From NCBI GenBank assembly GCA_031267295.1, contig JAIRZI010000091.1, forward strand, positions 1 to 42,123: 42,123 bases of DNA. The letters are read 5' to 3'. Position 1 is the first letter of the stretch. Every line of letters starts with the position of its first letter. The translations under genes were made by a program, and so were the position numbers. Of the stretch, positions 27,449-33,670 are shown in pieces. The stretch is from Propionibacteriaceae bacterium (GTDB taxonomy: Bacteria > Actinomycetota > Actinomycetes > Propionibacteriales > Propionibacteriaceae). The notes under the pieces are model-generated. The model saw nothing but the letters and a program-made list of their open reading frames with translations. It had not been told where the DNA came from and ran no database searches.

Positions 27449-28794
27449 GTAGTCATAAAGTAGCTGTAATCGGCGCCGGGTCAGCCGGAACATTAGCCGC
27501 AGTTCGACTCCGGCAACTGCTAAATGATGCCGTACAAATTACGGTGTATGAACGCGGTTCGCAGGCAGGTGGTAGAGCTTGGGACGTAGATTTTGCCGGC
27601 ACCACTATTGAAATTGGCGGCACAGTGCTGCACTCCACGGGTCGGCACACTATGGATTTGATGAAGCTAACCGGTGCCGAAGAAGGACATTACACTTCCG
27701 GTATCTCCGGTGATGACAAAACTTTTTGGTTCTGGACCGACAAGGGGTTCGTCGTGAAAACTGGCGACTCGTTACCGTCTATGGCGCTTGGGATTGTGAA
27801 ACATGTCGGGCCGTTCTCAGCGCTTCGGGTTACCATGTCGGTACAAAAAGTGGCGAAGAAGTGGACGGGAATCTACGCATTACAAGACGCTGGCCAAACT
27901 TTCGACACCCCGCAGCAGATGTTAAGTGCATTGGGGCTTAACGCCGAGACTGGCGTGTCTGTGCGCGATGAACTGCATAACCATCATGTGAATAGCCGCA
28001 TGATTGACGATGTAGTAGTGCCGATTGTCCATAACATGTACAACCAGGGTGGTGAACTAAACTCGCTAGCCGGACAAGTTGGTTTAGCGGGCGCAGGTTT
28101 AGCTGGTGGCTATCTATTCAGCGTCAAAGGCGGAAACAGAACATTGTTTAGCCAGGCGCTAGCCAAGATCGAAGCTGACGTGCAGTTGAACACCGCAGTG
28201 ACACGCATTGCCGGTGCCACTAACTCCGATGGTGGGCTGACTTGGACTCTAACCACATCGAGCGGTTCGTCCCAGTTTGATGCCGTGGTGCTAGCGGCTC
28301 CATTAGCGTTAGCCGATTTAGAGCTAACTCTTGACGGCACACCGTTAAGCGTTAGCGTTTATCCTTACCAGCAGGTGAATACGACGCTGGTAGTGGGGGA
28401 ACTTGCACCGGAATACTTCGGGCTACCCGCCGGGGCTAAACTACCTGGGAACTTTTTCGTTGCCGATTCCGCCAAACAACCGTTCAAATCTCTTGGCATC
28501 ACCGGATTTTCACCTGTCTATCAGCAGCGCATCTACAAAATATTCTCCGCTGAACGGAAGATGAGCGACGAACTACTTGCGCGCATTTTCTCTTCGGTGA
28601 GCGCGGTGCATCGCCATGTGTGGCGCGGAGCCTACCCAGTGTTGCCCGCAGGGATCGACCATGTGCCGTTTATATTAGCACCGGGCTTAACTTATGGCTG
28701 CGCCTTTGAAACTGCCGCCGGAGCAGTTGAAGTCGAAGCGGTAGGCGGGTATAACGCCGGTTCATTAGCTGCGAATGCCCTACGTCTTAAATGA
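27445..28794 (+). CDS. FAD oxidoreductase resembling prenylcysteine oxidase
   Basis: A 449-residue flavoprotein. VAVIGAGSAGTLAAVRL near the N-terminus is the FAD-binding fold, and YERGSQAGGRA holds the ribose-binding acid. Several later segments recall eukaryotic prenylcysteine oxidase (PCYOX1): IEIGGTVLHSTGRHTMDLM, FDAVVLAAPLAL, the YQQVNTTLVVGEL...YFGL region, and a C-terminal TYGCAFETAAGAVEVEAVGG. No signal peptide is seen, unlike the lysosomal enzymes. The reaction is unknown; oxidation of a prenylated thiol or another isoprenoid is possible. It follows the MFS gene with a four-base overlap. Related amine-oxidase or phytoene-desaturase-like families are the main alternative. Confidence 0.65.
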   Translation: MSSHKVAVIGAGSAGTLAAVRLRQLLNDAVQITVYERGSQAGGRAWDVDFAGTTIEIGGTVLHSTGRHTMDLMKLTGAEEGHYTSGISGDDKTFWFWTDKGFVVKTGDSLPSMALGIVKHVGPFSALRVTMSVQKVAKKWTGIYALQDAGQTFDTPQQMLSALGLNAETGVSVRDELHNHHVNSRMIDDVVVPIVHNMYNQGGELNSLAGQVGLAGAGLAGGYLFSVKGGNRTLFSQALAKIEADVQLNTAVTRIAGATNSDGGLTWTLTTSSGSSQFDAVVLAAPLALADLELTLDGTPLSVSVYPYQQVNTTLVVGELAPEYFGLPAGAKLPGNFFVADSAKQPFKSLGITGFSPVYQQRIYKIFSAERKMSDELLARIFSSVSAVHRHVWRGAYPVLPAGIDHVPFILAPGLTYGCAFETAAGAVEVEAVGGYNAGSLAANALRLK

Positions 28795-28827
28795 ACGCCG
28801 TAAAGTGGACGACGGAGATCGTGGCCC

Positions 28828-28866
28828 AGACCTAAAGAAGACGACGCTGGGGATATATCCGTCTCC
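28828..28866. repeat. 39-bp repeat, copy 1
   Basis: A 39-base sequence beginning AGACCTAAAGAAGACGACG and ending ATATCCGTCTCC recurs at 29444-29482 with one mismatch. The two copies, in direct orientation, bracket the pair of palindromic elements. No function is evident. Confidence 0.75.
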
Positions 28867-28868
28867 TA

Positions 28869-29041
28869 TTTCCCCGTCATTGCGAGGAGCGCAAGCGACG
28901 AAGCAATCCAGAAAAGGATAACAACCTGAACAAAAAGGTTTTCGTTCAACGGACATGGATTGAAAAGTTTCGTATAAATGACGCTCGACAACTAGATTGC
29001 TTCGCATCCTGCGGTCGCCCGCAATGACGAGCGATACGTAA
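28869..29041. repeat. Dispersed MITE-like palindromic element, copy 2
   Basis: A 173-base element with inverted terminal arms: CCCCGTCATTGCGAGGAGCG at the left and CCCGCAATGACGAGCG at the right. GAAGCAATCCAG and its partner TAGATTGCTTCGC lie further in. It is identical to the copy at 29173-29345 except for about one base (G/T near 28986). A minus-strand ORF across it is only an accident of the sequence. Confidence 0.85.
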
Positions 29042-29172
29042 CTGGGACTAGTGACGACATTGCATGTCTTATTTTGGATGTGTCACGATTAAATTACTCA
29101 CCCTACTTAGTTTTCTTCATCAACATAGGAGATGCGGTATTCGGATGCTACTGCTGTAGGTAACAATTCCAG

Positions 29173-29345
29173 TTTCCCCGTCATTGCGAGGAGCGCAAGC
29201 GACGAAGCAATCCAGAAAAGGATAACAACCTGAACAAAAAGGTTTTCGTTCAACGGACATGGATTGAAAAGTTTCGTATAAATGACGCTCTACAACTAGA
29301 TTGCTTCGCATCCTGCGGTCGCCCGCAATGACGAGCGATACGTAA
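29173..29345. repeat. Dispersed MITE-like palindromic element, copy 3
   Basis: A direct copy of 28869-29041, displaced by 304 bases and almost identical, so duplication or insertion was recent. The flanking sequences differ, which argues against simple tandem slippage. No coding potential is evident. Confidence 0.85.
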
Positions 29346-29443
29346 TCGCGTGATGTATAACATCACTTTGGATAACTCTGATTTGAGTTCGAGGTTTATA
29401 CCACTACAACCACTTCCGCACTAAAAAAGGAAGCTCGGATCCT

Positions 29444-29482
29444 AGACTTAAAGAAGACGACGCTGGGGATATATCCGTCTCC
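29444..29482. repeat. 39-bp repeat, copy 2
   Basis: The second copy of the sequence at 28828-28866, displaced by 616 bases with one mismatch (AGACT instead of AGACC at its start). Apart from the repeats, the stretch 28795-29593 shows no gene. Confidence 0.75.
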
Positions 29483-30782: not shown

Positions 30783-30933
30783 GTATGTAAGTTCGCTGCG
30801 CGGAGGTGATGCACTGCCGCTTCTCCCCGGGACACACTATCGCACAAACTCGCTACACGCGCGGGGGATGATCATGCTCCTCGCAGTGACGGGGAAACTT
30901 AATACGAAACTCGCTACACGCGCGGGGGATGAT
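30783..30933. CRISPR. Degenerate CRISPR-like repeat cluster, block 1
   Basis: Three repeats end at 30811, 30872 and 30933, spaced exactly 61 bases, which equals a 29-base repeat plus 32-base spacer as in type I-E arrays. The two better copies share AACTCGCTACACGCGCGGGG followed by GATGAT. The first is degraded (GTTCGCTGCGCGGAGGTGAT). The right half CGCGCGGGG-ATGATC matches actinobacterial type I-E repeats, while the left half has lost the complementary CCCCG arm. No leader or cas genes are seen nearby. The array is probably dead. Confidence 0.55.
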
Positions 30934-31163
30934 TTCGCGGTCAAAACCCGCCACCACCGGATCGCAACACTGCTATGGCACGCTGACACTGGTCTTGATG
31001 CATCAGTGGATTCCTATGTCAACCTTGCAGACAGGACGGCAAAGCGTCCCTACTGCTCACGCGGTTACCACCTAGCCGACACACTACCCGCGGGAGGGTT
31101 GACGCTACCCGGCGCATACGAAATGCTGAAAACGTTACCCGAGTTCGCAAGAGCAACAGAGTG
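30934..31163. other. Stretch between repeat block 1 and hicB
   Basis: No supported gene. A 99-codon plus-strand frame (30868-31167) starts inside the repeat block, has no ribosome site and no recognised motif, so I do not call it. No further repeat fits the 61-base period here. Confidence 0.4.
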
Positions 31164-31541
31164 CTAGACAGCGAGTTGTTGCGCGCGGGCGCGCGACACT
31201 CCGAGCACGGTAGCGGTATCGGCGAGCGACAGTCCCTTGTCGCGCAACTCTTTGACCGCTGCGCGCATACGTGCTGAGGCTTCTAGGACGGCTGTTTGGG
31301 CGGCGCTACTCGATGCTTTCGCATCGTATGCGCTAGCTAGGCTCGACCCCAACTCGGGTATCACGTCGATCACCCAATCGCTGTGTTCTATCTCGGGGTG
31401 TGTCGTGTCTAGATAATCGCGTACCTGCTGTACGGCTCCGGCGAGCGTGCGTGACTGGGTAGCAGCGTCGCAGTCACCGTCGTCAAAAGTGAGTTCCCAG
31501 CCGCCGCTCCACCTGGTAGCGCAAACTTTCAAAGTGGTCAT
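31164..31541 (-). CDS. hicB: HicB-like antitoxin
   Basis: A 125-residue HicB-type antitoxin. The N-terminal part is the partly degraded RNase H-like fold that binds HicA (WSGGWELTFDDGD, then TLAGAVQQVRDYL). The C-terminus carries a helix-turn-helix (LSLADTATVLGVSRARAQQL) that can bind the operon promoter. ATG overlaps the hicA stop (ATGA), giving the classical hicA-hicB order on the minus strand. The module lies between two blocks of CRISPR-like repeats. Confidence 0.85.
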   Translation of the reverse strand: MTTLKVCATRWSGGWELTFDDGDCDAATQSRTLAGAVQQVRDYLDTTHPEIEHSDWVIDVIPELGSSLASAYDAKASSSAAQTAVLEASARMRAAVKELRDKGLSLADTATVLGVSRARAQQLAV

Positions 31542-31738
31542 TTTGTCTCCTTGGCTTCTTTGAGTGCTCGTAGCGCCGCTTTAGTGACGGCGGCTGAGCA
31601 TTCGATTTTATGCGTGATCGTCACGCTGACACCGTTCCGATGCGCCCACACTTCATGATCGCCCCTGCCTTGGCGTAGCTCGAAGCCTGCCATTTTGAGC
31701 AAACGGGCTAGATTGCGGTATTTCATCGGCTTTGTCAC
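31538..31738 (-). CDS. hicA: HicA mRNA interferase toxin
   Basis: A 66-residue HicA toxin with a small dsRNA-binding-like fold. The conserved histidine occurs in QGRGDHEVWAH, after LLKMAGFEL. HicA cleaves mRNA independently of translation when HicB is lost. The ORF starts at GTG 31738. The predicted transcription start is only about 2-3 bases upstream, so a leaderless message is likely; ATG at 31726 is an alternative. The catalytic residue is intact, so the module may be active. Confidence 0.88.
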   Translation of the reverse strand: MTKPMKYRNLARLLKMAGFELRQGRGDHEVWAHRNGVSVTITHKIECSAAVTKAALRALKEAKETK

Positions 31739-31746
31739 ACCTTAAC

Positions 31747-31774
31747 TGTATACCCCACTATACGATAGTGTCAA
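31747..31774 (-). promoter_or_regulatory. hicAB promoter with palindromic operator
   Basis: Read on the minus strand, a perfect -35 TTGACA (31769-31774) is followed after 16 bases by TATACA (31747-31752). Between them lies the palindrome ACTAT-N3-ATAGT (31757-31769), well placed for repression by the HicB helix-turn-helix domain. Transcription would begin next to the GTG of hicA. Confidence 0.65.
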
Positions 31775-32134
31775 GTGGATATGCACAAAATGAAAAGAAA
31801 CAGAAATGTTAGAACCAACACCAGAACCCACGCCCGACCTCGCGCCAGAAGAAAAGGCATGAACGGCTTGGAAAGAGAAATAGAAAAATGAGCATCAAAT
31901 ATGCAACCGATGACAGTGTGCCCCTGGGCGAAGATACGCATCCCAGCGGCCTTAACGATTCCCTTACCCATAACGTCGGCAAGACCGCGTTCACGGTCGG
32001 CGGCACCAGCTACGGTACGCAATGCACCGCCGCCGTCTACGCGATAGAACGTGCCGGGTACGGCATCACCCAAAGATACCCGAATGCTAAAACTGACCCA
32101 TAAGCGCCGTCATTCACGCCTACTACAACCTAGT
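31775..32134. other. Stretch upstream of hicA, weak ORFs only
   Basis: Overlapping frames on both strands are open here: 71 codons at 31888-32103 on plus, and up to 100 codons on minus. Neither has a strong ribosome site or a recognisable domain, and the minus frame ends in a low-complexity hydrophobic run. I cannot support a gene. Confidence 0.3.
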
Positions 32135-32349
32135 ACCGAACGCTCAAACTACGCGCAGATGATTTTTGAATGACACGCAACCACCAGCAACGCACCTACT
32201 CAAGCTACGCGCGCGGGGATGATCTATCACAGCAGGGTTACTTTTGCGGGTAGCTCTAACTCAAGCTACGCGCGCGGGGATGATCTGGATGTCGCTTTTT
32301 CAGCAAAACTACCCTGTGACGTAAACTCGCTGCACGCGCGGGGTAATGA
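32135..32349. CRISPR. Degenerate CRISPR-like repeat cluster, block 2
   Basis: Four repeats with ends near 32163, 32223, 32284 and 32345-32349, spaced 60-61 bases. The central two are identical over CTCAAGCTACGCGCGCGGGG followed by ATGATC. The first is worn (CTCAAACTACGCGCAGATGAT). The last (AAACTCGCTGCACGCGCGGGG) is closest to block 1 and lies within the 3' end of alr. Spacers of about 32 bases differ from each other. Same interpretation as block 1: remnants of a type I-E-like array. Confidence 0.55.
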
Positions 32350-33448
32350 GGGAAGTTACCTCATAGGGAATAGTTCCCATTAACTCCGCCAATTCGGCGG
32401 CATCGATACTCTCATCACCAGAACATCCCAACCACACCACGTCATCGCCTACTGATACCGATGGTTTTTCTGAGCCAAGGTCAAGCATCGTCTGATCCAT
32501 GCAGACGCGCCCCACTACCGGATATGACCTACCGTTAATTAACATGCGGCCTCGGTTGGAGTTAAGCCGTGAGAATCCGTCGGCATACCCCACTGGAACG
32601 GTGGCGATCCAACTATCGTTGGGAGCTTCCCAGGTGCGACCATATCCCACTGTGTCGCCAGCACGCACCTGCTTTATAAACGACACTTTGCTGTAGAGCG
32701 TCATAACCGGCAGCAGATCAACGCTACGGGGAGTTAGCGGATCAGGATAGTAGCCGTAGGCCATGATTCCGGGACGCACTAAAGTAAGCCCCTCCAAGGA
32801 GTGCCCGAGCACTGCTGCCGAGTTGGAGGCGTGTACCAGTGCTAACGGCTCCAATCCGGCGGCGGCGCGCACTCGCTGAATCGAATCAACGGCATTGCGG
32901 AAAGTTCGCAGTTGGCAGATAGTGAAACTATCGCCATCGGGGTGATCACTGATCGGAAGATGCGTGAAAACGCCTTCAAAAAACAGGTTAGGGTCGTCTG
33001 AGAGACGTTGCGCTAGTTTGATGGCGTGTTCCGGGTAACAACCGATACGACGCATCCCAGTATCGACAGCGAGTTGTACTGTTGCGGCCAACTCCAGTTC
33101 GCCAGCAACCGCGCTAGCTTCGGTGATCGTTGTCTCGTCAGCTACTGTGAGCGAAATGTCATTGTTGATAGCATCAAGCAACTCATCGGGGAACGAGGGG
33201 GTGAACTTCAGAATGGGCAGCTTTACTCCGATAGCACGCAGTTCGATGCCTTCCGGTACTGTCGCCACTCCAAGCCAATCGGCGAGTTTTTCTTCCTCCA
33301 CGAAACGCGCCACTTCTTTAGCCCCATGCCCATAAGCATCAGCTTTGAGCGCGAGCATAATTTTGCGTTCGCCAACTCGCTCGCGGATTCCTGCGAGGTT
33401 ATGTTTCAAATTGCGCAAATTAATTCGCGCATATGTCTTGTACAGCAT
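32309..33448 (-). CDS. alr: Alanine racemase
   Basis: A fold-type III PLP enzyme that makes D-alanine for peptidoglycan. The cofactor lysine is in MLALKADAYGHGAKEVA, the second catalytic residue region is GYGRTWEAPNDS, and RVCMDQTMLDLG carries the substrate-site methionine block. Length is 379 residues from ATG 33448. This start matches the family N-terminus (YKTYARINLRNLKHNL) and lies just after a TATAAT box; the longer frame from 33472 would begin upstream of that box. The last codons, encoding PRVQRVY, coincide with a CRISPR-like repeat. The sequence still fits the usual RVPRVY end of the family. Confidence 0.95.
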   Translation of the reverse strand: MLYKTYARINLRNLKHNLAGIRERVGERKIMLALKADAYGHGAKEVARFVEEEKLADWLGVATVPEGIELRAIGVKLPILKFTPSFPDELLDAINNDISLTVADETTITEASAVAGELELAATVQLAVDTGMRRIGCYPEHAIKLAQRLSDDPNLFFEGVFTHLPISDHPDGDSFTICQLRTFRNAVDSIQRVRAAAGLEPLALVHASNSAAVLGHSLEGLTLVRPGIMAYGYYPDPLTPRSVDLLPVMTLYSKVSFIKQVRAGDTVGYGRTWEAPNDSWIATVPVGYADGFSRLNSNRGRMLINGRSYPVVGRVCMDQTMLDLGSEKPSVSVGDDVVWLGCSGDESIDAAELAELMGTIPYEVTSLITPRVQRVYVTG

Positions 33449-33458
33449 GAGCCAACCA

Positions 33459-33464
33459 ATTATA
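33459..33464 (-). promoter_or_regulatory. Candidate alr -10 box
   Basis: A perfect TATAAT on the minus strand ends 10 bases before ATG 33448, so the transcript would be nearly leaderless. The -35 region is poor. An inverted repeat TGATTC-N6-GAATCA lies just upstream at 33484-33501 and could be an operator. Confidence 0.5.
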
Positions 33465-33670
33465 ACCCGCATAACTTATAGGTTGATTCGATAATGAATC
33501 ACGAACTAAATGTCGTGCGTCTTAGATTTATTTCTAACCGGTTGAAGTCACGCTGACAAGGCACAAAGATAGCGCCGACGCAGAATCGTCAACCTACCTA
33601 CAACACAAGAACAACGAATCCCAAACCTTTCTCTTAAGCTGAATACAACCCGACGGAAGAGACAAGAGAA

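Follow-up and report, generated by a model that had tools for sequence, protein, structure and literature searches.

Within a 42,123-nt stretch of a Propionibacteriaceae genome, analyzed as a whole and called the window below, two short blocks of repeats lie on either side of a hicAB toxin-antitoxin pair. This arrangement raises the question of whether the blocks are what remains of a CRISPR array and whether the toxin-antitoxin pair has any part in its persistence. The reading that we favor, at a probability of about 0.72, sees in the locus an orphan type I-E array, decayed and without cas genes, that lies downstream of the alanine racemase gene alr; its spacer S2 would be self-derived and hicAB independent of it. 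Coordinates of all features are collected in Table 1.

Table 1. Features of the repeat locus and its neighborhood (window coordinates)
Feature	Position	Strand	Evidence
R1, decayed repeat copy	30783..30812	+	GCGCGGAGG-TGAT versus R2, p = 0.004; 61 nt upstream of R2
R2, 28-nt repeat AAACTCGCTACACGCGCGGGGGATGATC	30846..30873	+	Same as R3 over 27 nt; right part resembles I-E repeat with a 3-nt gap
S2, 33-nt spacer from own dispersed repeat family	30874..30906	+	Best genomic copy 31/33; match ends sharply on both sides
R3, repeat	30907..30934	+	27 nt identical to R2
hicB, antitoxin gene	31164..31541	-	phrog_8245, 2.6e-10; 61% amino acid identity to G005 homologue, dN/dS ~0.2
hicA, toxin gene	31538..31738	-	PF07927 at cutoff; phrog_353, 1.4e-10; 56% amino acid identity to G005 homologue
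Sigma-70-like hicAB promoter	31745..31774	-	TTGACA-18-TACAGT, 10/12; pattern match only
R4, decayed repeat copy	32138..32164	+	CTCAAACTACGCGC, 13/14 versus R5; 60 nt upstream
R5, 28-nt repeat ACTCAAGCTACGCGCGCGGGGATGATCT	32198..32225	+	Same as R6; right 18 nt 16/18 versus canonical I-E repeat, in register
S6, 33-nt spacer	32226..32258	+	Searches of own genome, phages and viral contigs gave nothing convincing
R6, repeat	32259..32286	+	Identical to R5
alr, alanine racemase gene	32309..33472	-	Coding conserved in G005/G006; 3′ end (32323-32343) matches left part of R2 at 20/21 nt

The blocks are recognizable from two exact repeat pairs. Positions 30846 to 30872 recur at 30907 to 30933 (R2/R3, 27 nt) and positions 32198 to 32225 at 32259 to 32286 (R5/R6, 28 nt); the members of each pair are 61 nt apart and enclose a nonrepeated 33-nt spacer. 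Both pairs have the build of an array, with 28-nt repeats, unique 33-nt spacers, and a 61-nt period. Each is preceded by a decayed copy resembling the repeats of its own block: R1 ends at 30811, 61 nt upstream of R2, and R4 ends at 32163, 60 nt upstream of R5, with 0 of 500 shuffles equaling its 13/14-nt match to R5. The repeat variant differs between the blocks (R2, AAACTCGCTACACGCGCGGGGGATGATC, versus R5, ACTCAAGCTACGCGCGCGGGGATGATCT). The original prediction counted seven repeats at a 60- to 61-nt period, and six of these were confirmed, namely, R1 to R3 in the left block and R4 to R6 in the right. The seventh (32323 to 32349) proved to lie inside the alr coding sequence and out of register, its GGGG being 64 nt from that of R6. 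It spells ...LITPRVQRVYVTG, where the congeners G005 and G006 encode ...LIPPRVQRVYV; the conserved 3′ coding end of alr that it encodes (...LITPRVQRVY) is shared with both congeners.

A 19-nt repeat core with three mismatches is expected to match the window by chance 0.01 times. As the original prediction required, the repeats do not occur genome-wide at other spacings: a pattern search detected them nowhere else in the 1.69-Mb genome, and it is the spacer S2 that occurs genome-wide. Searched against GTDB contigs, the repeat-derived pattern gave a single match, in Comamonas, which we took as chance and rejected, so that this form of the repeat was found in no other species searched. An Rfam search returned nothing relevant. 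An apparent pair of GGGGATGAT motifs 63 nt apart in the congener G001 was likewise set aside, being unlike any repeat outside the motif; it looks like a chance match and is probably coding.

To what CRISPR type the repeats belong is indicated by other members of the family. Long type I-E arrays with a 61-nt period are present in five same-family genomes (G014, G019, G037, G056, and G059), with the repeat GTGCTCCCCGCGCGAGCGGGGATGATCC in G019 and G014. Against the canonical G019 28-mer, the right 18 nt of R5 agree in register at 16/18 positions, a score that no other position in the contig reaches (R6 aside, at most 14), and R2 aligns when a 3-nt gap is allowed (GCTACACGCGCG---GGGGATGATC to GCTCCCCGCGCGAGCGGGGATGATC). 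I-E repeat sequence makes up the last 10 to 12 nt of the repeats (CGGGGATGATC), and alr lacks it. One comparison also included the canonical Bifidobacterium and Escherichia coli repeats, for illustration only. The left halves matched no I-E repeat. They had been described as having lost their pairing arm, which is only partly correct: R2/R3 retain a possible 5-bp stem (CUCGC/GCGGG) at −6.4 kcal/mol, which is not significant (shuffles equal it one time in eight), whereas for R5/R6 no good stem was found. The canonical I-E repeat folds at −15.1 kcal/mol. Because neither pair has a significant palindromic stem for Cas6e, we class the locus as a decayed relict of an I-E array and not as a working array.

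The original prediction noted no cas genes in the window, and searches of the genome for cas1, cas7e, and cas3 did not recover them either. In the 97-contig draft (95.65% complete), profiles for Cas1 and Cas7e had no match at all, and the Cas3 profile recovered generic helicases only, with no true cas3; a complete I-E system (cas1, cas7e, and cas3) was not found in this draft. In the congener G002, a contig (L119, G002:C234:1-3430) carries a full-length Cas3 match (201 bits) followed by the N terminus of Cse1/Cas8e, which indicates that type I-E is present in the genus. The comparison covers one strain of this species and congener genomes that are drafts too.

The clue to the history of the array comes from S2, the one spacer whose source was identified. 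Aligned with 53 copies of a dispersed repeat family of the host genome, S2 matched the majority base at 30 of its 33 positions (30874 to 30906), and at the bases adjoining it on both sides agreement dropped to 2% of the 53 copies, while the family copies stay alike one another beyond these boundaries. With so sharp a break on either side, S2 is an excerpt whose length is exactly that of a spacer. The same test bears on the idea that the 61-nt units are not CRISPR at all and derive from the dispersed family, in which a 33-nt core alternates with 20 to 30 nt between cores. The family is partly semitandem with a spacing of 53 to 63 nt, and S2 is one of its cores. The abrupt loss of agreement at both ends of S2 speaks against this origin, as do a profile including the S2 flanks, which found no other array unit, the R5/R6-S6 segment, which is unlike the family, and the match of the repeats to I-E. 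On the column test and the profile scan, we rejected a dispersed-element origin of the whole array and consider it extremely improbable.

Members of the dispersed family also lie at window positions 28780 to 29482 and 1 to 300 and on many contigs of the genome (L075 to L094), often near contig ends, and family cores are carried on a 178-nt duplication within the window (28864 to 29041 versus 29168 to 29345, 98% identical). The genome contains about 100 matches to the family (99), against none in G001 to G007 (six congeners and one other member of the bacterial family), so S2 was probably acquired within the lineage of this species. The copies matching S2 are flanked by CTT, GCT, TCT, or CCT, or, in reverse orientation, mostly by CAA or TAA; no AAG/AWG protospacer-adjacent motif (PAM) was seen beside them. 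No 22-mer of S2 matched viral contigs. For S1, S5, S6, and S7, exact 20-mers gave no convincing protospacer in viral contigs, nor was a convincing one found for S6 in phages. An open reading frame at 30868 to 31167, for which relatives show no homologue, traverses S2 and R3; neither it nor the one at 31888 to 32103, both of which adjoin hicAB, belongs to a family that we could find. Since R2 and R3 are identical, the repeat would already have been degenerate when S2 was inserted. The last adaptation thus appears to have been self-derived, lineage specific, and built on an already degenerate repeat.

The left part of R2/R3 also resembles a host gene. The array sits downstream of alr, and the left 21 nt of R2/R3 are identical to the 3′ end of this gene (32323 to 32343) at 20 of 21 positions, which simple decay of an I-E repeat does not account for. 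Elsewhere in the window, the array excluded, no match to these 21 nt exceeds 15/21, and the alr ends of the congeners likewise get no further than 15/21; chance is accordingly an unlikely origin of the sharing, which probably arose within this lineage. In this one strain, R2 looks like an alr/CRISPR hybrid, with the alr end on its left, the end of an I-E repeat on its right, and the junction at the common GCGCGGGG. Such a composition could be read as a natural neo-CRISPR, in which Cas1-Cas2 placed self-derived spacers beside the alr stop codon, at non-CRISPR sites resembling an I-E repeat (around the 3′ end of alr and a copy of this end). Two young mini-arrays would have resulted, in place of the decay of an old array, and in their new 28-nt repeats the 3′ end of alr would be joined to an I-E end. 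We regard this as unlikely, although it would fit several observations: each block is in essence a single spacer flanked by identical 28-nt copies of an unusual repeat, two in number, the difference between 20/21 in the strain's own alr and 15/21 in the congeners points to recent sharing, and noncanonical integration by E. coli Cas1-Cas2 is on record (Nivala 2018, as cited in PMC11788318). Against it, CGGGGATGATC is absent from alr, so that alr alone was not the acceptor, and R4, and probably R1, are further in-register copies. If true, it would mean that host genes can give rise to new arrays in nature.

The same 20/21 match would also be expected if recombination, or integration of an islet at alr, had duplicated short stretches of the 3′ end of this gene and the likeness of the repeats to CRISPR were a coincidence; in addition, the gene order next to alr differs from that in G005 and G006. 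This account does not explain why repeats and spacers measure 28 and 33 nt, why S2 is an exact 33-nt excerpt, or why R5 matches the I-E repeat in register, and we consider it very unlikely.

Between the blocks, the original prediction placed hicA and hicB with a promoter, and all three were found: HicA toxin and HicB antitoxin are encoded by adjacent, intact genes, and the sigma-70-like promoter is a pattern match. Judging from the dN/dS of ~0.2 against the G005 homologues, the pair is under purifying selection. Together with its position between the blocks, this is what one would expect if hicAB had acted as an addiction module and guarded the CRISPR locus against deletion, in the manner of CreTA. 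That possibility, raised in the original prediction beside a chance insertion, was not supported, and we give it scarcely any weight. HicAB is a protein toxin/antitoxin pair; there is no Cascade left to guard or to repress with, the cas genes having been lost anyway; and comparison of the spacers with the hicAB promoter yielded a single 9-mer, in S1. Moreover, the G005 homologue (L058, G005:C216:8593-12180) occurs at a locus with no array. There tRNA-Val (tac) lies on one side of the pair, and on the other the 3′ end of the tRNA and its downstream sequence appear in duplicate, an anatomy suggestive of a small mobile integrated islet; the homology of the genome studied here to that islet extends little beyond hicA and hicB. 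Most likely, hicAB is an unrelated, independently mobile neighbor of the array, and no role for it in keeping the array is demonstrated.

Taken together, the match to the family I-E repeat, the 28 + 33 architecture, the cas3-cas8e genes of a congener, and the exact 33-nt excerpt support the prediction of a relict I-E array. Several observations weigh against this reading: the lack of an I-E match for the left halves of the repeats, a repeat form seen in no other species searched, the missing PAM beside the copies of S2, a source identified for one spacer only, the 20/21 match of R2/R3 to alr, the different repeat variants of the two blocks, and the draft state of the genome. For the decayed orphan array that we favor, the following order of events may be proposed. 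An ancestor of the genus would have had a type I-E CRISPR-Cas system, which one congener has kept. At this locus, the repeat would have decayed or undergone recombination with the end of alr. Cas1-Cas2, either the lineage's own and lost afterward or provided in trans, would still have inserted at least two spacers into the degenerate repeat, each insertion duplicating it exactly (R2 = R3 and R5 = R6), and one of the inserts, S2, would have been a 33-nt piece of the host's own dispersed family. Self-targeting is costly (Stern 2010, as cited in PMC8047081), and a spacer such as S2 would direct Cascade/Cas3 to dozens of places in the chromosome. Because this is incompatible with working interference, interference either would already have been dead when S2 was taken up or would have been lost as a result, S2 helping to select for cas loss. 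hicAB would have arrived independently, between two halves of one array or between two neighboring mini-arrays.

As the dispersed repeat occurs in this species but gave no match in six congeners, the adaptation machinery would have worked after the species split. The locus gives the impression of a CRISPR loss that is recent, can be dated, and is tied to autoimmunity, and it suggests that Cas1-Cas2 can go on extending repeats that have lost most of their hairpin. Given more strains, it would let one ask whether self-derived spacers drive the loss of cas genes.

Among known systems, the locus resembles the I-E arrays of the same family (G019 and G014), with which it has in common 28-nt repeats, 33-nt spacers, a 61-nt period, and the 3′ half; it differs from them in its few, partly decayed repeats of two variants, the replaced left half, the weak or missing hairpin, and the lack of detectable cas genes. 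CreTA, the known toxin-antitoxin guard of CRISPR, also combines degenerate repeats with a nearby toxin-antitoxin pair (PMC9458426). CreTA, however, is an RNA pair whose toxin is repressed by Cascade through a promoter match, whereas the pair here is of protein, no cas7e was found, and, the S1 9-mer aside, no spacer matched the toxin promoter beside a PAM. The engineered neo-CRISPR arrays obtained with overexpressed Cas1-Cas2 (Nivala 2018, as cited in PMC11788318) likewise show an unusual 28-nt sequence in two identical copies with one spacer in between; the present locus is natural, and the 3′ half of its repeat is truly the end of an I-E repeat. Finally, the self-targeting spacers described by Stern 2010, as reviewed in PMC6990116, resemble S2 in being taken from the host chromosome, but here it is a dispersed repeat, matched about 100 times, that would be targeted, and the array that carries the spacer is cas-less.
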